In this document: one piece after another, positions 38,200 to 56,686 of the stretch
Layout: every line of letters starts with the position of its first letter
Numbering within the stretch: position 1 is the first letter of the stretch
Translations under genes and position numbers: made by a program
Assembly (NCBI GenBank): GCA_023091665.1
Contig: JALJCQ010000027.1
Span: 1 to 64,000 of the forward strand
DNA: 64,000 nucleotides
Origin: Pythium myriotylum
Taxonomy: Eukaryota; Oomycota; Peronosporomycetes; Pythiales; Pythiaceae
Reading direction: 5' to 3'
Notes under the pieces: generated by a model
Databases searched by the model: none
Seen by the model: only the letters and a program-made list of their open reading frames with translations
Told to the model about the DNA's origin: nothing

Positions 38200-40784
38200 A
38201 TGCTACCACCTAATTATATTCCATCCTTATACAATCCATCAGACTATATCGGCTTATTGGATTACTTGACTATTAGTATTGGCGATTTGCGATATAACAA
38301 AAGAAATGGGGTGAATTACACTTCGAATTTGTACATCACTGGAAATATCTATCAAAATGGAACAATGATTGATTTGAGTGTGCTGTCGGGTATTACACCA
38401 GGAACAGCTTCCGCTGGGAAATTGACTGCGGTTGACTCTAACAGAGACATCGCGAACATTAATAATCTATCAGCATCACAATTAACAGGAACGCTTCAAA
38501 CACCTGCACAACCTAACATTACATCATTGGGAACAATTTCATCAACACTCACTATTAGTGGATCTACTCCTATAACTTTTAATAACTCCCTGTCCAGTAG
38601 CACATGCTCATTATCTGTTGATTCTGTATCTGGAGATCAGACATTTGGCAGTACAACAGCGAATAAGTTTCATTTGAGAACAAATGGGAATAGAAAAATA
38701 ACGATAGGATCCACTGGATTAGTAGGCATTAATAATACATCTCCAGCTAAACAATTAGATATTATCGGATCGACAGCATTAACAAACTCATTGTATCAAA
38801 TCACTGATGGAACAGTAATTTATCAGCAGTGGTTCGATGGGACTCAATGTTGTCTCCAAACGTTTTCAAATCATCCATTGACTTTTGCATCAAATAATGG
38901 ATCTGTGCAAATGTCAGTATTAACGAATGGAAATGTAGCTGTTAATAACACATTGACAGCTACGAATATATCCGCTTCAACTTTATATGGAACCCTTCAA
39001 ACAGCTGCTCAGCCCAATATTACATCGATTGGAACTTTAGCGACTCTTACGGCTACATCAATTACTGGAACACTTCAAACAGCTGCTCAGCCAAATATTA
39101 CCTCAGTTGGAACTTTAACATCATTGAATTCGACACGATTTATCACCGCTACTTTAACTGCTAATGGGCAATCGTTTAATCTATAAATGGTACTTCAACA
39201 TGTGCTCTTTTTCATTTTTACAATGGGGATGCTTATTTTGGAACATCTACAGCAAACAATTTAGTCTTTCAAACAAGTAATACAGGAAGAATGACAGTTA
39301 GTTCATCAGGTGCAGTATCTGGAATTTCATCGCTAAGTGCTACAACATTAACCGGAACTCTGTCTACAGCTGCACAACCAAACATTGCTTCCACTGGAGA
39401 TTTAACATTACCGAGTTCGCTCGCGATAACGAATGGAACGACTCCACTTTCAATCAGTAATACAACCTCAACGAGTACCTTTCGCTTAACCATTCAAAAT
39501 AGTGGTGGTGCTCAAGATATTGGCTCTTTTACAAGCCATAGCTTATTTTTAAATTCAAACAATACAAGACGATTACAATGCGATACCTCTGGTAATGTAG
39601 ATATTTTAAATCATAATGCATCTACTATTGGATTAAAGCTTGGTGGAACATTAATTACATCGTCGGCTACTGAATTAAACTTTTTATCTGGAGCGACCGC
39701 TGGGACGGCAAGTGCAAGTAAAGCTCTTGTGGTTGATTCAAACAGAAGCATCACGAATATTGCAAAAATAAATTTAACGAGCTCTGATGCTACAACGACT
39801 ACCGGAACTACTAATGCAAGTGCTTTTGGATTGAATATACTGGCTACAACTAATGCAAATGGTCAATATAACGTTGCAGGAATAGCTTTTAGAAACGCTC
39901 TTAGCGATGGCATGCCTCATGGAGTAATTTTATGTCAAAGAACAGCAGCTGCGGCTGGCGATCTAGTGTTTCTGACTCAATCAGCGACCAATAATTTATC
40001 AGAAACTTTACGTTGTCTATCAACTGGAGCTATTGCTGTTAATGCTCCAGCCAACGCTGGAATTACTTGCTTTGGTTCCGCAAACTATGTTGATGGTTCA
40101 TACCAGAAAGTATTAGATTTGCAATCGAACAATGTTTCTCCAATAGATTTTTGTATTGAAATTAACTCTGGAGCAAATACAACTACCACAAATGCTACTT
40201 GGATGGGCAATTTGACTAATAATGACTTGCGATTCGGGGTAAATAACTCAACGAAGATGATTCTGGATACAAATGGACGACTGGGTATTGGAACAACAAC
40301 ACCAAGCACTACGTTGCATGTTAGTGGAACTGTTTCGAATACATTTAATGTTGGTGGCCAACTTTATGCTACTGGAACATCCACAGCTTACACAACAAGT
40401 CAATTGGGCCCCGTTACGGTGTCAGTAGCTGCTATGTTTGGTGGTCCTATTCAATGTTCGTCGATTTATTGTACATCGGATCGTAGATGTAAGGACATTA
40501 TCGACCAACTAGACACTAATTATTGCGATAAATTCTATGACCTAAGTGTTTATGAAAACAAACACAAAGGGTCAGATGAAACAATTCCAAAGATTGGCTT
40601 CATTAGTCAAGAATTGTATGCAGCTGGATACATAAATTTACTATCAATGACACCGAATGAAAACTTGAAGAAAGTGGATGAAGATGACATAGAAGGATAT
40701 CAGATGAACATTGATTATAGTAAAATTACAGCGATAAACTTCTGTATGAGAAAAAAAACTACTCAATCGTGTGAAGCAACTTGA
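38200..40784 (+). pseudogene. Fibre-like protein with S74-type chaperone tail, one frameshift
   Basis: Two frames (38200-39186 and 39291-40784) belong together. The second frame is readable backwards to about 39190, so a one-base shift near 39185 splits a protein of about 860 residues. The body has repeated segments of the type GTLQTAAQPNITSIGTL (at least five copies) and many Ser/Thr/Asn-rich beta repeats, as in trimeric fibres. The C-terminal 110 residues (from CTSDRRCKDIIDQL through GFISQELYAAGY) match the S74 intramolecular chaperone domain of phage tail spikes, with the Ser/Lys dyad present. The start ATG at 38200 is preceded by TTTTACAAA. It is probably the receptor-binding spike of the virion. 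Confidence 0.78.
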
Positions 40785-41015: not shown

Positions 41016-42773
41016 CTATCCTGTTAATCGATCGATACTCATAGAACGACCGTATACGACGAGAATTAGACAATTCATTCCTTGACTGGAAGTATTAGTG
41101 CCTGAGACTAGGATAGATTGAGGCACGTCTGGATTCGTTAATCGAGAGCAGTCTGCAATTAGAACACGCTGACCAACATCCCATTTGTAGGAATCAAATA
41201 ATCCATTGCTAATCTCATGCGATAGAGCTCCATTAATAGCTCCGAGCTTCTTGACTTCGTCTTGGAACGATTCAAATGAGTAATCATGCGTTTTGTTGAA
41301 TACATTTTCATTGCCAACCATTACTTGGAAATTGCGAATGCTTGCGCCTGGCTGACAAGTCCATGGAGCACTGTCAAACGGGGATTGGAATTGTTCAATA
41401 TTCGTTGCGCTTACGAAATGACCACTGCTTGTTTCACTATATGGAATCAGAGCAATGTATTTGATATTCTTTAAGCTTGAAGATAATTGAAAGCTAAACG
41501 GAGCATTTTGCTGAGAGTTTTGTTGACCAGTACCTGCTTTTGATTTGAAATACTGTGCGTAGCAATCGAGATAATTGACTTTCTTAACAGGTTTAGCAAC
41601 AATTTGACTTTGATTAGCGATATCGTAAAACGGAATATATAAACGAGTCGTTGTAAATGGGAAGATTTGACCAGAAGTCGAGATGTGTGTAATGTTGTTA
41701 GACATAACGCCAAAAGCTACTCGAAGTGAGCCACCTCCGCCAGTGGTAAGTTTTCCTGCATTTGGATTACCTGGGGCCGCACTTGATACCATTACTGGAA
41801 CCGTCGAGCAACCGTTTAGGGAGAGAGAGGATAAGCTCATTAAATCTCCAGTTGCGGTTGTGATATCAACAAAGCCGGTATTGAACGTCATCGTTAATTT
41901 GATTTGAGGGTTCGCAACGAGATCCAATTCTTTAAAGATTGGATGGAGGTCAACTAAACGAAGCTTTAACATATAATACCACGTACCAGCAACACCTCCT
42001 GCGGTAGTAACGCCAGCTACGTATCCACCAGTACCTTGTTGTTGAATTTTAGAAAGAATTGCACCACTTCGCGTTGTCGGCCAACCAAGAGGGTTTGTTG
42101 CTGTAATCGTTGCTCCAGTGGCATCAGAGGTACCAATTTGTTGTGGATTCCAAATTAGACGCTGAATTAGTCCGTTATTAAGAGCTGGAGTTGTTTCTGG
42201 AATTAAACCAGTAGCTACAGTTGTGGCAGCATTCACTGAATTATTCACAAAACCATCTCCTTGTGTTGAAGCGGTAGGATTGCTACTACTTTGTGGGAAA
42301 TTTAGACTGACTACATCATCTGGAGCAAAATAGCAGTCTGCACCGTTCTTTAATAAGTCATCATCACACCATTCAGTTTGAGCTCGTAAATTGTTCCAAT
42401 AGTTTTTGTAGTCATTGCTCGTAATGACACTTTTACCGTTAATTTCAACCGCTAATTTATCTAAAATGTTCCATACACCAGCCTTTAATCCCACCGCAAA
42501 ACGATTTAGAGTACCATCAAGAGCTGAGGCAGACGTATTTTTAACCGTTACTACATAAGGAACGACTACATATGCATCTCGAAGGCTGCCATAGCCAGTC
42601 GAGCCATTTAGTTGTGAAGTGGCATTAATTATGACAGTTCCCGATTGATACGAACCGTTGTTGTCATCAACAACATTTACAACACGCTTGTCTTTGCTGA
42701 CACTGACAACTGGATCCGGATTAGTTGTTGAATCGAATAAAAACGAATCCGCTAATTGGGTGCTATCACTCAT
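41016..42773 (-). CDS. Major capsid protein (double jelly-roll type)
   Basis: The intact 585-residue frame begins MSDSTQLADSFLF. Characteristic stretches are VVDDNNGSYQSGTVIINATS, YVVVPYVVTVKNT and VWNILDKLAVEINGKSV near the N-terminus. In the second half, TTRLYIPFYDIANQSQIVA and YLDCYAQYFK follow, then PGASIRNFQVMVGNENVF. Length, strand-rich composition and position next to penton, ATPase and protease genes fit the double jelly-roll major capsid protein of Polinton-like viruses. Its promoter region was cut by the piggyBac element, whose TTAA lies 16 bases upstream of the ATG. Confidence 0.85.
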   Translation of the reverse strand: MSDSTQLADSFLFDSTTNPDPVVSVSKDKRVVNVVDDNNGSYQSGTVIINATSQLNGSTGYGSLRDAYVVVPYVVTVKNTSASALDGTLNRFAVGLKAGVWNILDKLAVEINGKSVITSNDYKNYWNNLRAQTEWCDDDLLKNGADCYFAPDDVVSLNFPQSSSNPTASTQGDGFVNNSVNAATTVATGLIPETTPALNNGLIQRLIWNPQQIGTSDATGATITATNPLGWPTTRSGAILSKIQQQGTGGYVAGVTTAGGVAGTWYYMLKLRLVDLHPIFKELDLVANPQIKLTMTFNTGFVDITTATGDLMSLSSLSLNGCSTVPVMVSSAAPGNPNAGKLTTGGGGSLRVAFGVMSNNITHISTSGQIFPFTTTRLYIPFYDIANQSQIVAKPVKKVNYLDCYAQYFKSKAGTGQQNSQQNAPFSFQLSSSLKNIKYIALIPYSETSSGHFVSATNIEQFQSPFDSAPWTCQPGASIRNFQVMVGNENVFNKTHDYSFESFQDEVKKLGAINGALSHEISNGLFDSYKWDVGQRVLIADCSRLTNPDVPQSILVSGTNTSSQGMNCLILVVYGRSMSIDRLTG

Positions 42774-42788
42774 TATTGAAATTGAAGG

Positions 42789-42806
42789 TTAACCCTTTCG
42801 CGAACG
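42789..42806 (+). repeat. piggyBac left terminus with TTAA
   Basis: TTAACCCTTTCGCGAACG is the exact inverse of 54183-54200. TTAA is the target duplication and CCCTTTCGCGAACG the terminal repeat. Confidence 0.93.
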
Positions 42807-42892
42807 ACCGTACAAATTTTGCTCGTTCGACACCTGTTTCAAAAGTAGTCGCAAATCACCCCCCTCGAACGGGCAATTTTTGCTCGATCGAC
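42807..42892. repeat. Left subterminal near-palindromic motifs (two copies)
   Basis: CAAATTTTGCTCGTTCG at about 42813-42829 and CGAACGGGCAATTTTTGC with CTCGATCGA after it (42866-42891) are versions of one motif that is nearly self-complementary. Two further copies lie near the right end at 53981-54005 and 54106-54129. Confidence 0.8.
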
Positions 42893-43504
42893 AAATGTAC
42901 CACGCTGGACCGAATCAGGTTTTGATAATGTCCTGTCTTTGTACGAATTGCTGGAGGTGTTGTGCTGTCGGAGCGTATTTTTTTAGCTAGATTCGGTTTT
43001 TCCATGCAAAGTGCGTAATCTACGGCGGCTAGGTACGTGGTTGACCGAATAAATCGTCCTTGGTGCACAATCGTATGGAAAGCAACGATGAAAGAAACGC
43101 CTTGGAGGGGAGTTTTGTGGAGCAATCACCGCTGACCTGACTACAATCATGATTCGCGCACTGTCTATATCCGCTCATTCCCAAATCGTTGAGGCTCACT
43201 GGTGGCAATGCAGCCTGCACTTGCTCCGCGGGCACCGCTGTCCCGCGCGCCGCGCGGCGCGCGCCCAGTTCGCAGTACAGAGGTATCCGGTGCTCATCAG
43301 TCGTCGACGTCGACGGTGATCAGCTTCCCAACCTGCTTCGTGGATTGACAGAATGCCACCACAGCAATGCGTATTGGAGACGCTATCTGAAGGGCCAGTG
43401 CACTGTGCTAAAACCATGGATACCAAGCGACGAAGGCGATGCATCTGCAAGTGAATCTAGAGACAGTCCCAGCTATTGATGGATGAGTATAATGGACTGG
43501 ATTG
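42893..43504. other. Left untranslated region of the piggyBac element
   Basis: No supported gene. It lies downstream of the transposase gene and holds the left subterminal sequences. Confidence 0.5.
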
Positions 43505-43997
43505 CTAAATGTAATCGTGAGATGCCGTATCAGATATGTTGGAGCCTGGTGTGCTCGGTGTGAACGGCGTTGCCGGTGTGCGAGCCTCGCTTGGTGCAGG
43601 TGTCGAAGCGGCGGTAGAAGGGGACTCAACCATCGGGGCGAACGTGAGGGATCGCTGGACAAGCCGGTCGGATACGACCTCAGAGTGCTCGATGCAAGCC
43701 GACTTGTTCCTGTAGTCGGTGGACGATCGAACAACACATCCAGCGTCTGAAAACGTACCCTGTGGCAGGTAGTACTGGTGGTACTTCTCCCAGCACGACC
43801 AGTCGTGACGCTGACAACCGTATCCCCTCGTGTCTTCCCCGTAGGTTCGCTTGCAGAGCGACACGTTATGCTTCAGGGACACCGTCGTGATCGTTGTATC
43901 CGCACGTCCTTCAAAACGGCAGACTATGCAAGTGCGCTTCCTTCTCTGTCCCTTGAACACGTGCGCGGACGACATATCAGTGCACACTTCTGAGGTG
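43505..43997 (-). pseudogene. Detached C-terminal zinc finger of the piggyBac transposase
   Basis: This frame directly follows the transposase stop but in another register. It contains RRKRTCIVCRFEG, later HNVSLCKRTY and GYGCQRHDWSCWEKYHQYYL. This is the Cys/His pattern of the C-terminal zinc-binding domain of piggyBac transposases, which binds the transposon ends. The preceding codons (GSPANTSEV) overlap the transposase end, so a one-base shift near 44003 has probably cut the finger off. An unusual spliced form is an alternative but no good donor site was seen. Confidence 0.65.
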
Positions 43998-46715
43998 TTA
44001 GCTGGTGATCCGAGACTCGGTAACCGTGCAGGCTGGGACGACGGCGATCTCTCGGATCAAGTCGGTCACGAATGCCCGATGGGAATCGCGCTCAGGTCTT
44101 GTGTCGTTTAGACACAGTCGTCTGGTGAGGTACGCGTTGACACGAGCGATGTCAATGACTGCGAACGCAAGTTTCTTGTGCCACTTCTTGAAAGAATGGC
44201 CATCAGCAACTGAGAAGCGAGCCCGCAATTGATCGTTTCGATCCACGCCCTGCATATGCTGATTGTACTCCTTGATTGCAGTCGGCGCTTGAACCGAGAC
44301 CTTCTCTCCACGGATCTGTCGCTCAACAGACGATATCGACGAGGTGTCCGCATTGGAGATGATTGTGACAATATTCCCATCACACCACGATGCTGCCAGG
44401 ATCTTGGAATCTGTGCAGACAGCTTGTAAGTAGTCTCCTCGCTTGACCTCTCCTCCAGCTCGAGGTGTGCGATCACCAGCTTCCACCCGATCCAAAGGTT
44501 CACTTTGGTCGCCAAGGTCTTGTTCCGAACCTGAGTCGTCATCACCTCTGCTACGCTTCTGCTTCGACTTGTTGGTGTCCTTTTCCCTCTTGCGCGGGTC
44601 AGGGAACACTACATGGCGAGGGAAGTGCTTGCTCAGCTGCTTCACAGTTCCTCTGCAGAACAATCGCTTGATGCGAAGGGCTTCGAGCAACTGGACGGAC
44701 GTGTAGTAGTTGTCACAGTTGACGATTCGACCGCTGCCGTGGAACGGGCGCGTGATCTCGAGCACGATCTGCCTTGTCTTCGACGTGATACTCATTTCAT
44801 CAGCGAGAAGCTCCGTGTTCGTCGCGTCGTGCACACCAGTCGCTCTTTGCTCTATGGTGGATTCGCAGTGAAGTCGGTAGCTGAGAGCAATCCACGTAGT
44901 CGCACAGCAGCACATATAAAACTTGAAATGGTACTTGCCCGTCGGTTTCGTAGGGTTGAAGACGATCATGTGACGAGCGAACTTGGACCTCGCAGCCACA
45001 CTCGCTTCGTCCACGGCTAGGTTTCGGCCCACCTCGACGTACTTGCCACCCGTCTGCTTGAGCATGTTGAGCAGAGTGCGAATGCGGACCGCAGCGTCGA
45101 CGCGAAGCTCATCTGGCGTGATCGACCTTGGGTTTCGGAAGCAAAACGCTGAGCGGAGCTGCTTGAAGCGTCTCAAAGACATGATATTGTCGAGGTTGCT
45201 CCTTGTGGTCGTGAAAGTAGCGTCCTCAATTTGCTCACCCCAGTAGTTCGCGTACTCACCCTTTCGAACGAGTGCCATATACCAAATGATACCGAGGAAC
45301 TTCATCAACTCGTCCATCGTAAAAGGAACCGGCACCTTGTTTATTCTGGCTTGACAATTCGTGTGCTCTAGCACTTGTCGCCAATAGTAAACTGGAAGAT
45401 AGGCGAAAAAGCTGGAGCTTGCCGAGTGCTCAAAGATGTGGCGGTACTCCGGCTTGGGTCGGGTCAAATTCGTTCCGTCGTCATGCGAATACAGAGTTGT
45501 TGGGGCTCGCATAGCTGCCTCCGGCGTGAATCGCATGCTTTGGATCTTCTCGACTTCAGCGAGACTTGTAGGTGCAGTTTGCTTCGTGTCAAACTCTTCG
45601 TACTCCACGAGGTGTTGCACATCTTCGTCGATTTCAACAGCATCATCCGGATCGGGGCGACACAACTGTTGCCATCGCGTGACGGACGTCTGTGCGCCGA
45701 GTCTCTTATAGTTCTCGAAGCCTTGCTTGACAATAGCGACGCTGATCTTCTCAACTCGATTCTGGAACTTGGATTCCAGCCAACGAATCTCGTACAATCC
45801 TTGCTTCGTCATGTAGCGGTAGTCGCTGACCCGACCCACGATGTACGCAGCGCCAACATCTTCGTAGGTTTTGTCCTTGAGCCACTTATCGTAGGCTGGA
45901 GAAAAAGCTACTAGTTTCCCCAAAAAAGTACGCTCCAGACCGTCCGTGCGTGAGGTCTTCTTCTTCTTGCCTCCTGTGGTCGTCGCTCGACCGGCACGCG
46001 TGGGCGTCGCCGCGCCCACGAGAGGCTGACCGGCTCTGGCTTTCTGCTTCCCTGGGGCGCGCGGACGGTCCATGGTGTCGGTGGGGCTCAACTCCATTGG
46101 CGCATGCTGTGCGTTCGCACCGCGCAAGCCAAGCTCAAATTCTTTTCGCTCCTCGAGACCACTCGCAGGCTGCCATTCAGGTTCGTCGAGACCAACACGC
46201 TTCACAAGATACTCGACAGTGTTGCCTCTCAACCGCTTCTTGAGGATGGCTTCGACTGCTGGCGCCTCATGTCCCTTTTCGAGGCCGTAGTCACAGTCAG
46301 GGTCGCTCGCGCAATCGCCGTCATCGTCGTCGCCACCAGCGGATTGATCGGGATGTAGCTCGAGAGCTCGAGGGCTCGAGGGAGTAGCGCCGACAGAAGA
46401 CTGACTGGGCGACGAAGAATCGGATTTGCTCTCTTCAAGGTCATGATCGCCGTGCACATGACGGGGCATTGGAGTTACCTTCGCCCTCTTTTTGGCCTTG
46501 CTCGGAGCTGTCTTCCCCTTTGCTTCGAATGCGGCGACAAGGTCATCACAGCTCAGATCGCTCTCCTTCACCCACGTGCACTCCGTATAGCCCTTCCACT
46601 TCACAAGGTAATCGATACCGCGCCTGTGTACGCGTTTGTCTCGGATAGCTTCTACTTCGTACTCGTCTTCGTTCTCATCTTCTATCACTGCTGGTTTCTT
46701 CCGCTTCGACCCCAT
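43998..46715 (-). CDS. piggyBac-type transposase with N-terminal chromodomain array
   Basis: The 905-residue protein has a chromodomain at about residues 18-62 ([16 protein letters not shown]). A second, degenerate one lies at about 153-190 (NTVEYLVKRVGLDEPEWQP), and a third chromo-like segment at about 294-340 (GLYEIRWLESKFQNR). Basic, low-complexity linkers separate them. The DDE_Tnp_1_7 (piggyBac) core starts near 395. The catalytic aspartates are D569 in VDEAS, D668 in CDNYYTS and D825 in QGVDRNDQ. The C-terminal zinc finger is out of frame downstream. It should excise and insert the element at TTAA, and chromodomains suggest targeting to methylated histone tails. It is the transposase of the surrounding TTAA-flanked unit. 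Confidence 0.9.
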   Translation of the reverse strand: MGSKRKKPAVIEDENEDEYEVEAIRDKRVHRRGIDYLVKWKGYTECTWVKESDLSCDDLVAAFEAKGKTAPSKAKKRAKVTPMPRHVHGDHDLEESKSDSSSPSQSSVGATPSSPRALELHPDQSAGGDDDDGDCASDPDCDYGLEKGHEAPAVEAILKKRLRGNTVEYLVKRVGLDEPEWQPASGLEERKEFELGLRGANAQHAPMELSPTDTMDRPRAPGKQKARAGQPLVGAATPTRAGRATTTGGKKKKTSRTDGLERTFLGKLVAFSPAYDKWLKDKTYEDVGAAYIVGRVSDYRYMTKQGLYEIRWLESKFQNRVEKISVAIVKQGFENYKRLGAQTSVTRWQQLCRPDPDDAVEIDEDVQHLVEYEEFDTKQTAPTSLAEVEKIQSMRFTPEAAMRAPTTLYSHDDGTNLTRPKPEYRHIFEHSASSSFFAYLPVYYWRQVLEHTNCQARINKVPVPFTMDELMKFLGIIWYMALVRKGEYANYWGEQIEDATFTTTRSNLDNIMSLRRFKQLRSAFCFRNPRSITPDELRVDAAVRIRTLLNMLKQTGGKYVEVGRNLAVDEASVAARSKFARHMIVFNPTKPTGKYHFKFYMCCCATTWIALSYRLHCESTIEQRATGVHDATNTELLADEMSITSKTRQIVLEITRPFHGSGRIVNCDNYYTSVQLLEALRIKRLFCRGTVKQLSKHFPRHVVFPDPRKREKDTNKSKQKRSRGDDDSGSEQDLGDQSEPLDRVEAGDRTPRAGGEVKRGDYLQAVCTDSKILAASWCDGNIVTIISNADTSSISSVERQIRGEKVSVQAPTAIKEYNQHMQGVDRNDQLRARFSVADGHSFKKWHKKLAFAVIDIARVNAYLTRRLCLNDTRPERDSHRAFVTDLIREIAVVPACTVTESRITS

Positions 46716-47353
46716 CGCTCACTTCCAACACTCAGTTCGCGTGTTGCACGCGTTGGCTATCTCCAAGGGCATCAATCCACTTGGACTTACTATAAGCGCG
46801 ACAACCAATCATGTTCTTTCATCTTTTGCCTTGCTTGCTCTATACCATTAATGCCGATAAAGCTATACCAATTGTAAGCTTTATGATGGTGACTGGTGAG
46901 GTGAAGAATCAACTACCATCATTTAGCTCACCTCTTGTATATAATTACTGGGGGTAATCATATACAAATAAGAAGGATCGTGAAGGTGCTTGCCCATCGC
47001 ATGCTGGCCTCACTTGAATGACACCATCTTTAAACATGATGTTTGTATGTGAATATAGCTCTTTATTGAATACCCATTGTAAGCTTAAAGATGGGCACTA
47101 GGGTCATTCAGATGAGGTTATGAAACGATCATGAAGAGCTGATGAGCTGAGTGCGATGGTGCCGCAGAAAGGAGTATGAGTCTCCTAGGCGAGGCAGCGC
47201 TGACTTGACGAAGCACCAGCTGCGTTCAACAATACCATCAAATCGCTAGCACCTCTGTGTCTGACGCGATAGGACGCTATTCGTAAGCAACAAACACACT
47301 GACGACGCTGGCGCGCTGTGTGTGCCTCAGATGATGAAAAAATTGGCATTCAA
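46716..47353. promoter_or_regulatory. Transposase upstream region with repeated GATGG-type motifs
   Basis: This spacer precedes the transposase ATG at 46715. It contains ACCATCTTTAAA (47023-47034) and the inverted form CTTAAAGATGGG (47084-47095). GTATATAATTA and GTAAGCTT motifs also occur and recur upstream of the coiled-coil and methyltransferase genes. No gene is seen. Confidence 0.4.
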
Positions 47354-49025
47354 TTATCCACGCAACCTGTTATTCGAGAACTCCTGTTGCTTCCCTAGGA
47401 CATATGAGACTACGCTACTGAGTAGTTCCGTACCCGAAGAATCACTCATGGTAATGATGGATGGAGCCACGGCTTCACACAGCGCATCCATATCCCTCTT
47501 CAGCTCGTCTGCCTCGACCACGTACTTTATGTACCCGTCAGGAGTGTGGCTGATGTCGTTTCGCACGTCTCACCATCTCTTGAAAAGCTTTCGGAGGCGA
47601 TTCAATTGGACAGTGTCAGCCCCGCGAGCCTCCGTTACACGCACTGCCATGTCTGCCATGCTTGCATTGTTCCCTAGGGCACCAACAACTCAGCATCCAG
47701 CACACACCAACCAAGGTATGTAGAACTTACAGAATGGGCCATTCTCGAAAGGGCTCTTGGCCCGGCTCTTGAAGCGCCCATCTCCATTGTACGCACAACT
47801 TGTGGCCATCTTGAGTTTCTTGAGCTCGAACTCCACCTTGCTGGCGCGGCTGAACAAGTCAAGCAACGCGAGTGCCTCGTCACGCTGTTCCTCAGCGTAA
47901 TTGCATCTTGGACTGTTCGAGCTGTGCTCGATATTGATGCTGTTGTTGTGCAAACGTAACCTCCGCGGCCTGAAGCTGTGTCTTCAATCGATGCAACTCC
48001 TTCAACTTCGGGCCAAGCAGTTGGGACAACTCGAGGTTAGTCGCTTCTGCCTTGGCCAACTTCTCTTTCGCAGCTTCTAACTCCTTCTCAGCCATCGTAC
48101 TGCCCGATATTTGCTCCCTCAGTGTCCGTGATGCTTGTTCTTTGCGCCTGAGGGTTTCTTGCTGCGTCGCCACTTGCTCATCTTGCTCTTGAATCTTTTT
48201 CTTGAGCTCCTTGATCATAGATATGTAGCTTGATGAGGCCTCCTCCACTGCGCGCTTCTGCTGCTCCTCAATATCCTGTTTCGCCTTCGCCACTGCAGCA
48301 TCGCGGGCTTTTACGGCTTCTTCCAGACACGTACACTGCGCGACAAGCTTCGTGTTCTCCTCAGCGAGTGCAGATGCGTCCGCGGCAAGCTTTCTCTTTG
48401 CCTCAACTTCTTGCTCCAAGCTCGCCTTGGCCTCATCGGCTTCACGTCGAACTCTGGCCTCTTCGTCTCTCACCTTCTGCTTCTGTTGCTGCTTCAATTC
48501 GAGCCGACGCCGCGCTTGCTTGATGTGGTGATTGAGAACACGTTCTTCAAGATGAGCTAAGCGTGTGTTGAGCAACTTGTAGAACGGTCCGACTTTTCCC
48601 CCGCTCTTCTTCTTTTTGTCGTGATCGGAGACGACGCCCAAGAGCCACGCAAAATCTGCATCCGAGATCACATTCGGCTGTGTTTGCACAGCAGGCGGTC
48701 GACCGCGAAGCTTCGGAGCTGGTGTGTCCGAGAAGATGGTGGACTTGTAGTTCTTGTACTTCTTCCTCGGCCTTCCTGTCTCCCCACTGCTACCAGGGCA
48801 CGCTGACGGTGTGGTGGACACTGTCGGTAGCTCTGGGTTCTCCGTCGCGGCGGATGAGGCTCCGACTTGGGAGCTAGTATCCTGGACAGCCGTCGCGCAA
48901 CCATGGCGCAGTTCCTGAGGAGGTGACGATGGCATCAAAATACTTGACTTTTGACTGAATCGGGGGGCCAATCGCGTTGTTCTCGACGGAGCTCGTTTGT
49001 CTGACCGGTCAACTCTAGTGACCAT
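47354..49025 (-). pseudogene. AT-hook/coiled-coil cargo protein, intron and lesions
   Basis: The first frame (47892-49025, 377 residues) has a Ser/Thr/Pro-rich N-terminus, then two AT-hook-like basic motifs, GRPRKKYK and KLRGRPPA (residues about 80-115). A coiled coil of about 210 residues rich in Ala/Glu/Lys/Gln follows. The heptads continue in another frame after a one-base shift near 47905. A 57-nt intron (47730 down to 47674; GTAAGT to CCCTAG) then joins NGPF to NNASMADMAVRVTEARGAD. That frame meets TGA at 47570-47572 but remains otherwise open to 47354. The protein probably binds AT-rich DNA, perhaps as an accessory factor of the transposon. It has the same direction as the transposase. 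Confidence 0.6.
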
Positions 49026-49273
49026 CTTTAAACGGTTCCTTTGAATACCGTTAACTGACGAAACCCTATACCTATTTCAAGCTTAAAGCTGAAGATGTCA
49101 AGCCGACTACCATCAATAATCAATATTTTTGTATATCATTACACCTCCTTAATGTATACTAAAACCAAGCAGAAAGATGGTAAAACTTCAATTGAGTGAC
49201 ATAATTGTGGATACTGACGCACCAGACCACCATCAATAAGCTTGGAGTGTGTATATGATTATGGACGGGAATT
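49026..49273. promoter_or_regulatory. Shared promoter region, left part
   Basis: Without the solo LTR, this spacer and 50126-50189 form one divergent promoter of about 315 bp between the coiled-coil gene and the methyltransferase gene. It includes AGAAAGATGGTAAAA (49171-49185) and ACCACCATCAATAAGCTT, related to motifs before the transposase gene. Confidence 0.4.
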
Positions 49274-50125
49274 TGTGGTGTAGCGGGCAGCAAAATTACT
49301 CTTGCTGGGCGCTTCCCACGTCAGCGTCTGTGCAGGATTCGGTAACGACCGCACCCTGGACACAAACGCCCCAGTTCTTTGGTCTTGTACCCGTTCTGGG
49401 ACCGTGGACTCGAGATCCCGCGTTGCAAGCGCGGAGAAGACAAGATCCGTTGAGCCTTGAGCGGAAGAGACGCGCCGCAACGGTTACACGCGCGGCGTGG
49501 CCTGGATCCGGTGCGTCGCGCGACCGGCAGGACTTGACACGGGATCCGTGCCGCGAGGCTTGGATCCGACCTTGAAAACGACCTTGACCTTCCCACAGTG
49601 TCTCGGGACACTGGAACTTTAACGTGGGCTGCTTGCCACCCACGGGACTTGACGGTTGAAGCTGCACGAGGCGGGGGGCGCGCTGGGTTCTCCTGACCTT
49701 GACCGCAGCTGACGCGTGCCTCTGACCTTCCCTCTTGTTCGCCGCTTGGCCCGGGGACTTGAGCTTGAGGGGGGAAAATCGCAACTTGTTTGTTATCGGC
49801 CAGACGCGTGTCCAAACCCAACTTATGTGGTCCACATAAATCCGGTTTTAACCCCGGATCCGGGTGTTCCACACAAAATCAGAACCTGAGACACGAGATC
49901 CAGCACCTACCCTACGCCTACTACCTGTACCCTACATATTAGCCTAATTAGCCTAGTCTAGCTTAAACTTCGCCTTTCCTTCTAAGACCCGGGACCCGCA
50001 ATGAGGGACATTAGGGCCCTCTGGATCCCCAACCGGAGCTCCTGCGGGACAGTCTAACCGTCGGATCCACGGGGTAGACGGTGGTGAGAGACCGCGGCTT
50101 CTCTTTCTCAATCCGCATCACCACA
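49274..50125. mobile_element. Solo LTR of an LTR retrotransposon
   Basis: The 852-bp segment begins TGTGGTG and ends CACCACA, a perfect 7-bp inverted pair with the canonical TG...CA ends. It is flanked by AATT on both sides (49270-49273 and 50126-50129), consistent with a 4-bp target duplication. It is GC-richer than its flanks and contains no gene. No internal retrotransposon sequence is attached, so it is a solo LTR left by recombination. It splits a divergent promoter of the piggyBac cargo genes. Confidence 0.7.
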
Positions 50126-50189
50126 AATTACATAGCAATACCAAGTCGAAAGATGGTGTGGTTTGAACGCTGAGCCAGAGTGATCGAAA

Positions 50190-51251
50190 ATGTCTGACTT
50201 CTCTGAGCATGAAGATTACCATCTTGTGGCCCTGGCCAGAGAGTACGAGGATCGAGGCAGGAAGGTCTCGTGGGCAGCGCTAGCAGCTGCGATGGCGTAC
50301 TCAAAGAAGGATGCGCAGGCGCTGAAGCGGCGGTTGACCACTCTGAAGACAACACACGGCAAGCTTCTGCGAGGGTTCCCAAGTCGTTTTCTCAAGTCCC
50401 TTGAGCATGCACGATCGGTCACCTCAAGACCCCGAAGACATGTCTTCATCCTCCCATACACTACGCCCACTCACCAGCCCGTCTCGCTTCACCCATTGAC
50501 TCTGAGTAAGGTCGATTCACCGCTATCGTCAAACACTTCTGTCTGCAGAGAATCTCAAGGCGACGAGCACCAACACAACATGGTCAGGACCACCCAACCC
50601 ACCATCGAAGCCAACCCGCTCTCAGTGTCGGACTCTGGCCGCGTGGTTGCAGAGATATTTGCTGGGATCGCCAAGTCTGACGTCCGCCAAGCTGCCGGCC
50701 GCACGGAGTTCAATGTTGACGAGTTGGCGACAGATGGAGTGGCAAACTTGGTTGATCGATGCCAACTCCGTCAACAAGATGTCTTCCTCGACGTCGGCTC
50801 AGGTGTCGGGAACGTGATTGCTCAAGTTGTCCTTCAAACGGCGGCGGATCGAGCGATTGGAATTGAGATCCGCAAGGATGTCGCGTCCCGTGGGTCACTG
50901 GCAATTTTCGAGGCGACGGTGCAGTACCCGCGTCTCTCACGAGCAAGTAACCACCAGAGCGACGTCTTGCAGCTTGCCGAGGATTGGTCGGAGGTACTCG
51001 ATACCACGGTGCTGTACGCAAACAATTTGCTCTTCACGCAGGAAGCCAGCCATGCTGTGCATCACTTATGCTGTGTCTTGCCAGGCTTGCGCATGGTTGT
51101 GCTTGGCGCGCGAGCTTGTCCACGGCATCGAAATCGATGCATGCGAGAGTTTTGTTTGCTGTGGCGCGAAGAGACTGAGACTCTCAGTGTTCGGACTGAG
51201 TACAAACATAGTCGAGTAGCCTTGTACGTCTACACAAGACCAACAGAGTAG
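50190..51251 (+). CDS. SANT-like/DOT1-like methyltransferase (cargo)
   Basis: The 353-residue protein starts with a Myb/SANT-like helical domain at about 5-62 (EDYHLVALAREYEDRGRKVSW) that probably binds DNA or chromatin. A Ser/Pro-rich linker follows. From about residue 140 there is a Rossmann-type methyltransferase with motif I VFLDVGSGVGNVI (198-210), an acidic SAM-ribose residue in GIEIRKD (E226), and VLYANNLLF (about 274-282). The motif I spacing and the NN...F segment match DOT1 histone H3-K79 methyltransferases. Its start follows GAAAGATGGTGTG at 50148-50160. It would write a chromatin mark, while the element's transposase carries mark-reading chromodomains. Substrate is inferred from family. 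Confidence 0.72.
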   Translation: MSDFSEHEDYHLVALAREYEDRGRKVSWAALAAAMAYSKKDAQALKRRLTTLKTTHGKLLRGFPSRFLKSLEHARSVTSRPRRHVFILPYTTPTHQPVSLHPLTLSKVDSPLSSNTSVCRESQGDEHQHNMVRTTQPTIEANPLSVSDSGRVVAEIFAGIAKSDVRQAAGRTEFNVDELATDGVANLVDRCQLRQQDVFLDVGSGVGNVIAQVVLQTAADRAIGIEIRKDVASRGSLAIFEATVQYPRLSRASNHQSDVLQLAEDWSEVLDTTVLYANNLLFTQEASHAVHHLCCVLPGLRMVVLGARACPRHRNRCMREFCLLWREETETLSVRTEYKHSRVALYVYTRPTE

Positions 51252-51319
51252 GGAGGGCAAAAATGAAGTAAAAATGAAGTCCATTACGAGATCAAATTCA
51301 CGCCGCAGGAGCGACCGCA

Positions 51320-52516
51320 CTAGTTGTAGCGATGGGCATCTTCCGTAAGGAAATCCCATGCGTTGAACGTTGGGAAGACGTCCACGTGCTCTGGGAGTTG
51401 CGCAGCTTGGAATTCTTGGAAGTTGGCGGGCAGCCTCGCGCGATCGTACTCAGTGCAGTGTGTGAACGTACGCGAGATCAGTGCTTGAGCTTGCTCCATC
51501 GTATTGCACACGAAGTTCACGAATACGACCTGATGCAAACGCACTTCCGCCAAAACTGGGGTCCATTCGGCGGCCGTGATATGCGCGTCATCGACGACGA
51601 CGACAGGGACATGGCGGTGGAGAGTGAAGCGCAGCGTCTGCAGGCATTCCCCACGGGAGTCGGCAAGGTTGGCCGGCACAAAATGGAAGCCTTGCTGGCT
51701 GCGGAAGACGTCGTCGCTTGAACAGATCAGGGTCTGGAGTCGCCGAGCCTGGGCGCACACCTTCGTCTGCAAAGCAAATGTCGTCTTGCCGCATCCCGGG
51801 AGACCGCGAAGAACGAAGACGAGGCTCTTGAGCGCATCCCATCCAGTCGCACCCGCCCGCAACGTCGCGAAAGCGTCAACCCGTTCTCGTATCAACTCGA
51901 AGAACATGAGCAGCATCGGATGGGTTCGCTCCAGGACTTGATCATCTTGCGCGGCGAAAATATCGCGGCGGATGGCGACCGTGTAGTGTGCAGCGTAAGC
52001 TTCGTTGTCCTGATAGAACAACTGGAGTCGCCTGCGCATCGTTGACTCAGGAATGTCGTGCCACGAGCGAGTGAGGAGGTCTTGAACGTCGAGATTTCCC
52101 TCGAAACTGACGCGACAGAATGCGTGGTAGCCCTCTCGTGCCAGCAACACGTATCTGTTCCACTCTGAGTACGTCACGTTGGTGTTGTCGATTATCACGA
52201 TCGGAACACGTCGAATCAGCGCCTGGAAACACTCCGCTTGGCAACGCGCATGCGCTTCCCCGAGCCTGGTCGAATCATATCTGTAACCGTGGTGAGTGAT
52301 GAAATATGTGTCTGCACTGCAGATCTGGGCCTCGAGCCCAATCGATTCGGCGTAAAGCTTGAGGAAAACTGCGAACGTTGACTTCCCGCACCCTGGTAGC
52401 CCACGGAGGATGACGACGAGGCTTCGACGATCGCGAGTGCGGATGCGCTCGTCGCTGAACTTATCGACGATCATACGGACCACCTCGGGGAACATGCGGA
52501 CGATCGGGTGCTCCAT
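51320..52516 (-). CDS. Double P-loop kinase, N4BP2/polynucleotide kinase-like (cargo)
   Basis: The 398-residue protein starts at the ATG at 52516; the frame is open to 52579 without an ATG. It consists of two tandem AAA_33-type P-loop kinase domains. The first has GLPGCGKS (residues 39-46), CSADTYF and VIIDNTNVTYSEW. The second has GLPGCGKT (238-245), CSSDDVF and VVVDDAHITAAEW. The conserved NTN of the first is DAH in the second, so the second domain may be catalytically altered. Related domains occur in N4BP2-like proteins and polynucleotide kinases, which phosphorylate nucleic-acid ends. A role in repairing or protecting transposon ends is conceivable but unproven. It is convergent with the methyltransferase gene, 68 bp away. 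Confidence 0.75.
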   Translation of the reverse strand: MEHPIVRMFPEVVRMIVDKFSDERIRTRDRRSLVVILRGLPGCGKSTFAVFLKLYAESIGLEAQICSADTYFITHHGYRYDSTRLGEAHARCQAECFQALIRRVPIVIIDNTNVTYSEWNRYVLLAREGYHAFCRVSFEGNLDVQDLLTRSWHDIPESTMRRRLQLFYQDNEAYAAHYTVAIRRDIFAAQDDQVLERTHPMLLMFFELIRERVDAFATLRAGATGWDALKSLVFVLRGLPGCGKTTFALQTKVCAQARRLQTLICSSDDVFRSQQGFHFVPANLADSRGECLQTLRFTLHRHVPVVVVDDAHITAAEWTPVLAEVRLHQVVFVNFVCNTMEQAQALISRTFTHCTEYDRARLPANFQEFQAAQLPEHVDVFPTFNAWDFLTEDAHRYN

Positions 52517-53980
52517 GATTGTGAGACCCAGAGCAACTGTGGCACGAGAGCGAAAAAACTCGTGCTTGATGGGAATCAATGACAGCTTGAGCGGGACAGG
52601 ACGTTAGCATGCATCAACCAACGATGAGAATCACGTTTACTTACACATTCGTTGCACGCGCATTGTGTTGTGTGATAAAGTGGCCGAAAATTTTAGGGCA
52701 CTAGACCGAGGTGATAGGCAGAGACTCAGGGTAGTACCGTAGGAGGCTCCAGACTAACCCATACTATTACTATACTCGGTATCAGCCGCCGGTATTACTG
52801 GCGGAACCGATACTGAGACGATTGTGCCATCCCATAGCCGATTGGCTAAAATGGGGGTCGATTGCGTAGCCGAAAGCCGCAGTCATCACCTGAATACAAG
52901 GGGGATGATCGGCAGGATACTGGCTGAATCGGCAGAAAAAGGGCATGTATTCAGCAGTAGTAATGGGTGTAGAGCCGGTAGCGAACTTAGGGCAGCCGAA
53001 CTTAGCGTAGGGGTACTTAGATCAGCTGATGAGACCAAGGTAATAGACTTCCACTTTCACCGCCAAGCCCGAAAGCAAGCCGCGTCGTCTTGGCAAGGAA
53101 CGTCGCATCAAGGCTCGCCGTCACCAACAGGAGGTGACGTTAAAGAAGACCCCGGTGGAACCTGGCTATTGCTGTCAGGGGAAGCCGACGACTCTCAAGC
53201 GGCCGACTTGAAGCGCTGGGGCAAGACTGCCAGCGGCGTCGGCTGCATCAAGGACAAGGACACTCGTGTGCGCCGGTGGGATCGTCCCCCCGCCACGACA
53301 AGGCAAGGTTACGGTCTCTAGTGCTGGGCACTAGCAGATCTTACGCCCCAAGGAAGCCGCAGCCGTCTCATCGGCTGCGCACAAGTACTCCGAGCCCCTG
53401 CGTGTTGAGCAGGCGTGTTTCTCGGCCCGGTACGACCCCCGGCCCAACTCTGCGAGACGGTCTCCTCGCGGAGCTCAGCTGGCCGACCCCAGAGGCTTCA
53501 CGACCCTCTGGCTTCCCCTCCCCCGACTTCGGTACCAGAGCGCCCACGGTTCACCCCCACAGCGACTTTCGTGGGGTGTAACGTCTGTTGGTAGCTCACT
53601 AGCACCAAGAATCTGAAGGCCTGTTGGCGAGTGGTCAGCTGTCACAAGCAGTCGCTGTGCAGTGATTTTGCTGACCCACTCTACCACAGTTGTTTTGGAG
53701 GCGTTTGCTGTCGCTGTTGAGATGGCGGAGCGGAGCAGAGCGAAGTCGAATGGCTAGGAGGAGGTGGAGAACTGGTTGAGTGGGCCACGATGAATATGTG
53801 GCAACGAGCTCACGCATCATGTGATGACGAGGGATGGACAGCCGCGAAGATTAGCTTTGAAACTTTCCTGAAAACAACGGCGTTCAATTGAGTGGTGTTG
53901 GAAAGCAACGGCACTTGATGCAGCTATTTCTCCAATCGTTGCTTGACCCCACATTTTTCTCCAATCAACATCGACAAGTC
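52517..53980. other. Right non-coding region of the piggyBac element
   Basis: No gene is supported in this 1.46-kb stretch. One frame at 52824-53321 is open for 165 codons but has no recognisable domain. A 9-bp direct repeat GGGCACTAG (52696-52704 and 53327-53335) may mark another small insertion. Confidence 0.5.
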
Positions 53981-54129
53981 AAACGGGCAAATTTTGCACG
54001 ATCGAGGGATGGGACGGTAAAAATTTATCCACTTTTGGGTTGAGGGAACAGCCCAATTTTTCGAATGCATGATATGGAAAGACGAAATTATGGGTGCGGG
54101 AATGGCGAACGGGCAAATTTTGCACGATC
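53981..54129. repeat. Right subterminal near-palindromic motifs (two copies)
   Basis: AAACGGGCAAATTTTGCACG at 53981-54000 and CGAACGGGCAAATTTTGCAC at 54106-54125 match each other and the left-end copies. They probably serve as transposase binding sites, by analogy with other piggyBac elements. Confidence 0.8.
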
Positions 54130-54182
54130 TATAAATATTATACTTGAATTTTGTATTGATACACTTCCTATTGTTCAGCTCG

Positions 54183-54200
54183 CGTTCGCGAAAGGGTTAA
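54183..54200 (-). repeat. piggyBac right terminus with TTAA
   Basis: CGTTCGCGAAAGGGTTAA is the exact inverse of 42789-42806. Confidence 0.93.
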
Positions 54201-54224
54201 TGCCTGTTATATTATGATTAGCTA

Positions 54225-54232
54225 TATATAAG
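54225..54232 (+). promoter_or_regulatory. TATATAAG box before the viral protease
   Basis: TATATAAG lies 9 bases before the ATG at 54242 and is identical to the box before the polymerase gene. Confidence 0.4.
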
Positions 54233-54241
54233 CATTACATA

Positions 54242-54628
54242 ATGATTTTTAAATTAAATAAATTGGGTGAATCGACTGCTAATGAACTACAAGAGCTCGC
54301 AAATCAGCTGAATGTTCATATTGATGGGATAATAGATTTCAGAAAAATCAGAGGCCCCCTAGGGAATGGAAGCTATATTATATTACTTCGATTAGACTCA
54401 GGTGTAGGCCATTGGGTTTGTGTGTGCAACAATGAATACTTTGATTCAATGGGTTTGGGGCCTCCAAGAGTTTTGGGTACCATGAAATATAATGATAAAC
54501 AGTATCAAGGCACATATGATGACTATTGTGGGTTATGGAGTCTGTTGTATTTTTTTTGCAAACAACACAATCAACCTGACTTATTCAGAAATTTTTACGA
54601 CTTGAATACAGAAGTTTCGTTTCGTTAA
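54242..54628 (+). CDS. Adenain/Ulp1-like cysteine protease
   Basis: The 128-residue protein has the catalytic order of adenovirus-type maturation proteases: histidine in GVGHWVCV (H57), aspartate in YFDSMG (D68), an oxyanion glutamine near residue 87-89 (KQYQG) and the nucleophile in DDYCGLWSLLYFFC (C96). Length is short but similar to Polinton proteases. It would process capsid and core precursors during virion maturation. The frame is intact. It was separated from the capsid gene by the piggyBac insertion in their shared upstream region. Confidence 0.85.
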   Translation: MIFKLNKLGESTANELQELANQLNVHIDGIIDFRKIRGPLGNGSYIILLRLDSGVGHWVCVCNNEYFDSMGLGPPRVLGTMKYNDKQYQGTYDDYCGLWSLLYFFCKQHNQPDLFRNFYDLNTEVSFR

Positions 54629-55140: not shown

Positions 55141-55735
55141 TGTAAACTAGTGAGCACCGACAGCCGTCTTTGCTAATTGGGCGAAGCCCCTCTGCAGCCG
55201 CCCTTGATTTGGATCGTATACTGTACATCTTGAGAACGCGTCCATAAAGAGAATTTCCAGAAAGAAGCCGTACTTGTACGAAATTATGCGGATTGTTCTT
55301 GAACGATGATACTCTCTCTACACTGAGCCGACTTGATACGTACCACGTCATGTTCAGCCGCCTTCGGCAGAGCGAGAGGTCCGCGTCCGACCATCACACG
55401 ACGTGATCAACTGCCACCGTTCCTGTTATAATGTGGGCCGTTTTTTCGATTTCGGTTGAAACATCCGCACAAAGACAGAAAGAGAGAGGGTGCGAATGAT
55501 CACCGCATCATGGAACGTTTCTTGACACTCATCCGTGAGTTTTGCATCGCTACATGGAGCGACTGCACGCACGCTGCCACCAATCGAAGCGGAGGTAGCG
55601 TCGAGGTTGCCAAAGCTTTTGATCTCTACCCGCCTTGGTGATGCACAAAGTTTGTCAAGATTGCCGATCATCCTGACCTCGTGCGCTGTACACACTTATG
55701 GTCACAACTGGTTGTCACTTCAACATTAGACCTCT
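55141..55735. other. Spacer between virus remnant and SET gene
   Basis: No gene is supported. It contains ATTGGGCGAAGCCCC at 55176-55190, repeated inverted at 57342-57356. The upstream region of the SET gene lies at its right end. Confidence 0.55.
55176..55190 (+). repeat. 15-bp inverted repeat, left arm
   Basis: ATTGGGCGAAGCCCC is exactly inverted at 57342-57356. The two arms enclose the SET-domain gene. Similarity does not extend beyond 15 bases. Confidence 0.6.
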
Positions 55736-56686
55736 ATGTCCCACATTGATGGGGCCACGGTCCAACATCCGAGGGCTGGTGAGTTGACCACCCCACTCAC
55801 CGCCACACTGGTGGAGATCATCGTCATTGATGACGAAGATGAAGCTGGCCAAGACCAGCCAGACAACGAACTGGAAGTGGAAGCTGTTCAAGCCCGTCAA
55901 GCACGTGCAACGGAGGCTGTCCAACGTCAAGGAGAAATTACCTCTCATTCAGCAGAAGATGATGCCGCTCAACCTCAAGGAGTCGTTGGCCCTCTGACCC
56001 ACCAAGACGGTGTCACTTCAGTGCGCGAATCAACCTCGGCCACCTCACGCCTTGCGCATCCGACAACCTGGCCACCTGACGTGATCAATTTGCGTGACAA
56101 CTTCAACACAGACGAGATTCAATACGTCAACACGTTAGGCATATGCGACTGCACAGCTCCATGCCCACACCCAACTTGCATGAAACCTGCCCTCGGTATC
56201 TACTGCTCGAAAAACTGCTGCCCTTATCGTGGCTACTGTGGGAATAGTCCTCGTCAATCTCCACACCTTCGATTGATGAGGAACATGGGGAGCCAAGACT
56301 ACTTTGTGCAGGCTACGAGAGCAATTGAAGCTGGTGTCATCATTGGTGAGTATCTCGGACGGTTGACAGGCGATCTTCGGCGTGGAAGACGCAATCGTGG
56401 GTATCGATTGGCCATGAGGCACGCCCCTGACGCGTCAACTCCCGGACGTGTCTGCATTGATGCCCAAGTAGTTGGAAGCTTAATGCGCTTCTTGGATCAC
56501 TCGTGTGATGCCAACACTCGTTTCCTGGAAATGTGCAATCTCCGCCGACACACAATCGCTGGTGTGACACGCAAAAGTATCAGGCGAGGTGAAGAAGTTA
56601 CTGTTGACAATGGAGACGAACTGTGGTTTCCTTGCCAATGTGGAACAGCACAGTGTCGTCACCGTGACCAGCAAATCGATGCCTAG
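55736..56686 (+). CDS. SET-domain histone-lysine methyltransferase-like protein
   Basis: The 316-residue protein has a disordered, Gln/Glu/Asp-rich N-terminus of about 130 residues. A Cys-rich pre-SET/AWS-like segment with CDCTAPCPHPTC and CCPYRGYCGN follows. The SET domain has GVIIGEYLGRLTGD, RFLDHSCDANTRF (the RFxNHSCxPN motif with D for N) and IRRGEEVTVDNGDE (the GEELTxDY motif with N for Y). The post-SET cysteines follow as CQCGTAQCRH. It should methylate lysines in histones or other proteins. The substitution of the usual catalytic tyrosine (DNG instead of DYG) may weaken activity. It lies between 15-bp inverted repeats and beside mobile elements. Confidence 0.8.
   Translation: MSHIDGATVQHPRAGELTTPLTATLVEIIVIDDEDEAGQDQPDNELEVEAVQARQARATEAVQRQGEITSHSAEDDAAQPQGVVGPLTHQDGVTSVRESTSATSRLAHPTTWPPDVINLRDNFNTDEIQYVNTLGICDCTAPCPHPTCMKPALGIYCSKNCCPYRGYCGNSPRQSPHLRLMRNMGSQDYFVQATRAIEAGVIIGEYLGRLTGDLRRGRRNRGYRLAMRHAPDASTPGRVCIDAQVVGSLMRFLDHSCDANTRFLEMCNLRRHTIAGVTRKSIRRGEEVTVDNGDELWFPCQCGTAQCRHRDQQIDA

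Follow-up and report, generated by a model that had tools for sequence, protein, structure and literature searches.

A stretch of 64,000 nucleotides from the oomycete Pythium myriotylum (assembly GCA_023091665.1, contig JALJCQ010000027.1, positions 1 to 64,000; hereafter the window) contains, between positions 42789 and 54200, one copy of a multi-gene piggyBac transposon. The family to which it belongs is specific for TTAA target sites and has, besides its transposase, three conserved cargo genes, which encode a DOT1-like methyltransferase, a kinase-like protein with two P-loop domains and a coiled-coil protein. The cargo looks like a conserved component of the element, not a chance capture, because it is present across families and is tied to related transposase loci. 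In our judgement this is probably a piggyBac family with a conserved cargo that is likely to act on the chromatin of its own element, where "chromatin-oriented" would be a reading of the protein domains. Transposons of the piggyBac type serve as the model for lean cut-and-paste elements and as a principal tool of genome engineering.

Ends, copies and empty target sites

The left end of the window copy reads TTAA (42789-42792) followed by CCCTTTCGCGAACG, and the right end reads CGTTCGCGAAAGGG followed by TTAA (54197-54200). The exact 14-bp inverted ends within duplicated TTAA at 42789 and 54200, first reported in a first-pass annotation of this DNA, were confirmed in the sequence, and the identical 14 exact bases are found at both ends of a second copy, L015. 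A search of the 58.7-Mb P. myriotylum genome with the 18-mer formed by TTAA and these bases (≤ 1 mismatch) returned 43 matches (backward control, 0), comprising nine pairs of ends separated by 8.8-11.4 kb, nine separated by 320 bp and seven ends without a partner. All comparisons of copies below were made within this genome. The long pairs (n = 9; 8,816-11,412 bp) have TTAA on both sides and flanks of their own in every case, so that the target duplication typical of the piggyBac superfamily was observed in 9/9.

The native element measures about 9.6 kb, with six of the nine long copies falling between 9,625 and 9,641 bp; L010 (8,993 bp) and L016 (8,816 bp) were shortened by internal deletions. 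The 11.4 kb previously given for the transposon is correct for its span in the window, but exceeds the native length because of two nested inserts that were found in none of the eight other long copies (L009-L016). The window copy also lacks 100 bp at 44047 that are present in 8/8 of the others. By alignment the long copies are approximately 97-99% alike. In each of the eight others, all four gene regions are at least partly retained; none is transposase-only, so that this outcome, named in the first-pass annotation as refuting, did not occur. L015 (9,641 bp) is the sole one of the nine in which all four frames are open (transposase, 1,103 amino acids (aa); coiled-coil protein, 446; methyltransferase, 353; kinase, 398). 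Among older or cut copies, L019 retains pieces of all four gene regions, and L017, L018 and L020-L023 retain subsets of them within the stretches fetched.

Unoccupied sites were searched by using the joined flanks of each of the nine long copies as a single query (40 of 133 candidates scored). Scored matches spanning the junction numbered 11 for the window copy, 13 for L010, 1 for L012 and 15 for L014; none was listed for the other five copies. Eight empty sites were read base by base, and seven have one TTAA (three for the window copy, two for L010 and two for L014); the L012 site reads TTCA, not TTAA. A single TTAA at an unoccupied site was therefore observed for three of the nine copies, including the window copy, for which all three of the sites read are empty sites of the kind that the first-pass annotation suggested looking for. 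The second refuting outcome named there, in which the cargo genes would lie at the same place without the ends, was not encountered: each long copy has its own flanks, and the joined flanks of the window copy match 11 unoccupied places. The unit is predicted from its domains to be moved by its transposase via cut and paste.

Features of the window copy are as follows.

42789..42806, + strand: left TTAA and 14-bp terminal inverted repeat (sequence; genome scan)
42805-42835 and 42866-42896 (within 42805..42896), + strand: two subterminal repeats at the left end, CGGGCAAATTTTGCNCGATC-like (motif scan)
43505..44056, - strand: cysteine/histidine-rich C-terminal part of the transposase, here in a different frame from the main part
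43998..46715, - strand: chromodomain and DDD piggyBac transposase, 905 aa here and 1,103 aa in L015
46865..47099, no strand: ACCATC-type repeated motifs upstream of the transposase (motif scan)
47693..49025, - strand: coiled-coil protein bearing AT-hook-like motifs; 446 aa in L015, with a frameshift close to the 3' end in the window copy
49068..50159, no strand: ACCATC-type motif family flanking a nested insert on either side, between the divergently oriented coiled-coil and methyltransferase genes (motif scan)
49274..50125, no strand: nested 852-bp insert without counterpart in the eight other long copies, AATT duplicated, ends TGTGGTG/CACCACA
50190..51251, + strand: SANT-like and DOT1-like methyltransferase, 353 aa (Pfam, structure; SANT-like by eye)
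51320..52516, - strand: double P-loop protein (AAA_33, polynucleotide-kinase-like), 398 aa (Pfam; frame open in this copy)
52672..53688, no strand: nested 1,017-bp insert without counterpart in the eight other long copies, GTTGT duplicated
53980-54010 and 54106-54136 (within 53980..54136), + strand: two subterminal repeats at the right end (motif scan)
54183..54200, - strand: right TTAA and 14-bp terminal inverted repeat (sequence; genome scan)

With ≤ 3 mismatches, the subterminal repeat has five matches in the window, all at the two element ends (0.01 expected), and these repeats are candidate sites for the transposase. The motif ACCATCWWT occurs seven times in the 9.64-kb L015 element versus once in the remaining 52.6 kb of the window, and lies upstream of three of the four genes (transposase, coiled-coil protein and methyltransferase). 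Measured against a background counted from this window only, the pattern fits a possible joint control of the genes.

Small elements share these ends. One of 320 bp with the ends of the present family (family 1) interrupts, at L023:289-608, the methyltransferase gene of another copy, located on C7; at the corresponding site the window copy and L015 have TTCA. Relative to L015, L023 is 99% alike in the kinase and 92% in the methyltransferase. The 320-bp elements with family-1 ends are likely, judging from these ends, to have been moved by the same transposase. In L011 (4073-4390), approximately 318 bp of the coiled-coil gene appear duplicated or inverted in the alignment of copies.

Transposase and cargo proteins

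The four proteins named in the first-pass annotation (a piggyBac transposase, an AT-hook-like coiled-coil protein, a DOT1-like methyltransferase and a double P-loop kinase) were recovered, with Pfam matches for all except the coiled-coil protein. The transposase matches DDE_Tnp_1_7 (about 1e-47) and Chromo (1.2e-15). When compared by sequence to solved structures, it matched piggyBat (8.5e-13), a second piggyBac-type structure and an HP1 chromodomain (7.5e-11). The chromodomain is nearest to HP1, with the letters Y, W and Y aligned at the positions which we take to form the cage. An alignment was made of the transposase (P0001) and 14 of the 76 hits of a protein search. The catalytic triad D569, D668 and D825, which aligns to piggyBat, is invariant in all 15 sequences, as are C963, C966, C980, H983, C988, C1008 and H1013 of the C-terminal cysteine-rich, putatively zinc-binding domain. 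In the window copy, the transposase frame loses this last part (905 versus 1,103 aa) because of the 100-bp deletion. Chromo domains are found in 27 of the 76 related proteins, and the relatives that carry an organism name are all from Phytophthora species (40-55% identity). Scans against NCBIfam gave no match for the transposase or the methyltransferase.

The methyltransferase frame is open in the window copy and matches DOT1 in Pfam (1.2e-14) and DOT1L by sequence (1.1e-9). The D-G-G-G of the S-adenosylmethionine (SAM) motif and F282 are invariant in 15/15 aligned methyltransferases, so that the DOT1 core is present, and a C-terminal C-R-H...C...C set shows little or no variation. The structural model has a mean predicted local distance difference test (pLDDT) score of 75.9, with a low-confidence stretch at residues 70-138. 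All 50 fold matches among those listed are DOT1 proteins (template modelling (TM) score by query, 0.42-0.48). The N-terminal helical part was read by eye and is presumably SANT-like. Relatives from P. sojae and P. capsici are about 28-31% identical.

The kinase matches AAA_33 in two stretches (7.3e-18). Residues G42, G44, K45, S46 and D69 of the first and G238-K244 and D268 of the second are invariant in 8/8 aligned sequences; we assume that the Asp residues serve as general base. The model (pLDDT 78.1) matches the folds of PFKFB, T4 and bacterial polynucleotide kinases and PSTK, with TM scores by target of up to 0.62 for a bacterial polynucleotide kinase. Comparison by sequence to solved structures gave marginal matches only (SRP54, TOD6 and TOD4), and NCBIfam matches of the kinase were below cut-off. 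Of 16 matches listed in the relative search, seven are close (55-82% identity), six with both domains and one (P0008) cut. Five of these seven (P0005-P0011) equal a methyltransferase relative in the size of the longest contig (3573, 3151, 4533, 2615 and 3113 bases), and the kinase and methyltransferase genes are therefore likely adjacent in those relatives. The coiled-coil protein has no match in Pfam and a weak one to SMC in NCBIfam; its two AT-hook-like GRP motifs were read by eye only.

Further families, selection and genomic setting

Protein searches of the genome led to C4, C15, C12 and C17. On C4, a second family is represented by L029 (403-9627), which spans 9,225 bp between 12-bp ends (CCCTTTCGTGGT; TTAACCCTTTCGTGGT). 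Its genes comprise a DOT1-like frame of 416 aa (3.4e-18), a single kinase domain in 183 aa (AAA_33, 4.2e-13), a coiled-coil frame of 569 aa, a zinc-finger and SET-like frame interrupted by a single stop, and a broken chromodomain transposase. The SET-like assignment was made by eye; pieces of that frame scanned with Pfam SET gave no match. The transposase of family 2 is about 51% identical to that of family 1, gene order differs between the families, and the subterminal repeats of family 1 have 0 matches in family 2. L030 and L031/L032 are broken family-2 copies, piecewise 94-99% like L029. A mariner-like transposase frame, recognised by eye, is nested in one of them (L030:5539-7130), and a 331-bp small element of family 2 (C9:1537957-1538287) adjoins the C9 copy at the ends of L016 through a common TTAA. 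The third lineage, on C17, is represented by a transposase that shares 51% identity over 484-1094 and in which three Chromo stretches were detected (2.9e-43), and by a decayed DOT1 gene; other elements are nested between the two, and no kinase match was found at this locus.

Transposase loci were merged by hand from PF13843 matches (99 in the genome) and from a transposase search (42 of 227 candidates scored), and a locus was called related if it matched the family-1 transposase, a class that is not defined by the chromodomain. A DOT1 or kinase hit lies ≤ 12 kb from 15 of 22 related loci versus 1 of 37 other piggyBac loci, and 15 of 21 DOT1 hits lie ≤ 2 kb from a kinase hit. Five ordinary piggyBac loci were fetched as controls. 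Clear ends were found for L044 and L047 (3,637 and 3,582 bp), and none for L043, L045 and L046 with the end finder that had succeeded on both cargo families. Scanning of four frames from the two short elements gave three transposases that lack Chromo and one frame with no match.

Across families, protein identity is 35-40%, the motifs are kept, and synonymous change is saturated. Within family 1, pairwise ratios of nonsynonymous to synonymous substitution rates (dN/dS) relative to L015 were 0.45-0.55 for the transposase (n = 4) and 0.38-1.72 for the cargo (n = 15, 14 of them below 1, the value of 1.72 belonging to a methyltransferase), calculated by a method that ignores transition bias.

The window copy is hosted by a repeated virus-like unit (41016-42788 and 54218-54628), in which capsid-like and protease-like frames were recognised by eye, with no Pfam match; matches to the joined virus-like site, without a piggyBac insertion, occur at 11 other places. 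Further frames in the window include a reverse transcriptase of 1,057 aa (24859-28032; RVT_1, 9.7e-39), one with a Peptidase_S74 chaperone domain (39180-40784; 5e-05), a SET-domain frame just outside the element (55730-56686; PF00856, 5e-11) and one with a Crinkler N-terminal domain (57553-59475; PF20147, 7.2e-23).

Interpretation, alternatives and significance

If the cargo acts on the chromatin of its own element, the predicted HP1-like chromodomain of the transposase would recognise methylated histone, and the complex would thereby be targeted to silenced chromatin or retained there. The methyltransferase would be recruited to the DNA of the element through the SANT-like, AT-hook-like and coiled-coil parts. 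A DOT1-type mark, joined in family 2 by a SET-type mark, would oppose silencing at that DNA and so allow transposase to be made. The least certain step is that of the kinase, whose substrate for phosphorylation would be nucleic-acid ends or some other small molecule. A bolder form of this proposal, in which an old and widespread clade of chromodomain piggyBacs carries a chromatin reader-writer kit (chromodomains reading, DOT1 or SET overwriting, the double kinase serving a DNA or RNA step) that makes it independent of host chromatin in site choice and expression, is put forward tentatively, and we rate it at slightly under even chances.

Several observations weigh against action of a conserved cargo on element chromatin. 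In the association, 7 of the 22 related transposase loci have no DOT1 or kinase within 12 kb, although three of these (L017, L021 and L022) are cut copies. Within family 1, variants seen in a single copy are close to neutral (0.84-1.57 of expectation); variants shared between copies are few, and those of the methyltransferase (11 nonsynonymous versus 2 synonymous) run contrary to constraint. Given the dN/dS ranges above, the cargo is not clearly as constrained as the transposase. At the level of the proteins, P0050, which lies outside the alignment, has a different letter at the second Asp of the triad; the DOT1L sequence match is limited to residues 176-292, and the NN pair of DOT1 varies among relatives. 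The fold matches of the kinase are weak over the whole protein (TM score by query, 0.23-0.33), its gene lacks the ACCATCWWT motif found upstream of the other three, and its P-loop domain (P0004, residues 32-128) matches the CARF-PDDEXK-AAA model of PADLOC (7.9e-21).

DNA transposons commonly capture genes, and an ordinary piggyBac may have picked up host genes that have no function for the element. The near-neutral single-copy variants agree with such passenger capture, as do DOT1 genes away from these elements (e.g. C25:696760). Yet the same gene types recur in two families with other ends, another gene order and transposases only about 51% identical, and the methyltransferase-kinase pair likely persists elsewhere at 53-88% identity with its catalytic motifs kept; we regard this explanation as unlikely. 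Scarcely different in probability, and likewise improbable, is that the cargo serves the host or acts against other parasites (viruses or rival transposons) and rides the piggyBac as an island of shared benefit. The position of the window copy within a repeated virus-like unit would suit such a role, as would the PADLOC match, which a P-loop kinase may also give without it. The role is countered by the same cargo in 8/8 other long copies, with no variable cargo among them, by the fit of the chromodomain and DOT1 to chromatin, and by the PADLOC matches of the other three proteins, which are either weak (E 0.0002 or worse) or absent.

Since piggyBac-virus fusions exist (Teratorn, in passages of PMC6431247) and the neighbours of the window copy look virus-like, a decayed virus-like element integrating by a piggyBac transposase was also considered, and is very improbable. 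The four main frames of L015 contain no capsid, polymerase or packaging domain, 0 relatives of the methyltransferase or kinase were found in viral contigs, and the virus-like neighbour genes lie outside the ends and are present without the insertion, the empty sites separating them from the unit. A viral origin of the cargo was addressed by three viral-contig scans (methyltransferase, kinase and methyltransferase alignment), none of which gave a relative; scanning by pattern detects close relatives only, and the third scan relied on a single short pattern. The near identity of the long copies (about 97-99%) could arise by segmental duplication or an assembly artefact in place of transposition. 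The different flanks, the TTAA at each end and the empty sites with a single TTAA speak so consistently for transposition that we give this explanation almost no weight.

Action of a conserved cargo on element chromatin, the preferred reading, can be set beside known systems. Like piggyBac, piggyBat and PGBD-type elements, these units have a DDD transposase, a TTAA target, short ends beginning with CCC and a C-terminal Cys/His-rich part; unlike ordinary piggyBacs (3.6 kb for the two in this genome), they measure 9.2-9.6 kb and have four to five genes and one or more N-terminal chromodomains. The captain of Starship elements is a DUF3435 tyrosine recombinase; no DUF3435 match was found by Pfam among the four main proteins, and the unit is not assigned to Starships. 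Teratorn of medaka is described in the passages of PMC6431247 as a fusion of a piggyBac and a herpesvirus with 41-182 kb of herpesvirus genes. It resembles the present unit in being a multi-gene unit mobilised by a piggyBac transposase, but differs in that the unit here is 9.6 kb, with no herpesvirus gene in the four main frames of L015, and does not class with Teratorn.

HarbingerS and MuDR elements of Phytophthora carry SET methyltransferase genes (a passage of PMC12730594, citing Kojima and Jurka 2014), and are similar in being oomycete DNA transposons with a histone-methyltransferase gene. They are unlike the present elements in transposase superfamily (DDE_Tnp_1_7 here, which does not fit HarbingerS) and in having SET instead of DOT1, and a kinase is not mentioned in that passage. 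VANDAL elements encode VANC anti-silencing proteins, which are sequence-specific factors (PMC5735166, PMC10398659); the proposed logic of an element encoding a factor against its own silencing would be alike. In Phytophthora megakarya, expanded hypothetical gene families occur in blocks, often with inverted-repeat ends and associated with DNA/PiggyBac (passages of PMC7341134). These blocks (FA00074/FA00107/FA00211/FA00254) may be relatives, by description only, and are not called transposon cargo in the passages of that source.

No DOT1-, kinase- or chromodomain-bearing piggyBac with cargo was found among the literature matches listed, although an entry in Repbase Reports or a subscription journal is possible, and none appears in the passages of PMC12477816 and PMC3522703. 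The first-pass annotation had proposed a new class of large transposon. A cargo-bearing family stands; its size does not set it apart, at 9.6 kb against the far larger Teratorn, and SET-carrying DNA transposons of Phytophthora are known.

If true, the preferred reading would mean that a natural piggyBac lineage has spread at a length of 9-10 kb with four to five conserved genes, including those for histone-methyltransferase-like enzymes and a transposase with an HP1-like chromodomain, and that lean piggyBacs can evolve a self-encoded chromatin kit. It would make testable whether oomycete transposons fight silencing with histone marks of their own, and may explain the piggyBac-associated gene blocks of P. 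megakarya.

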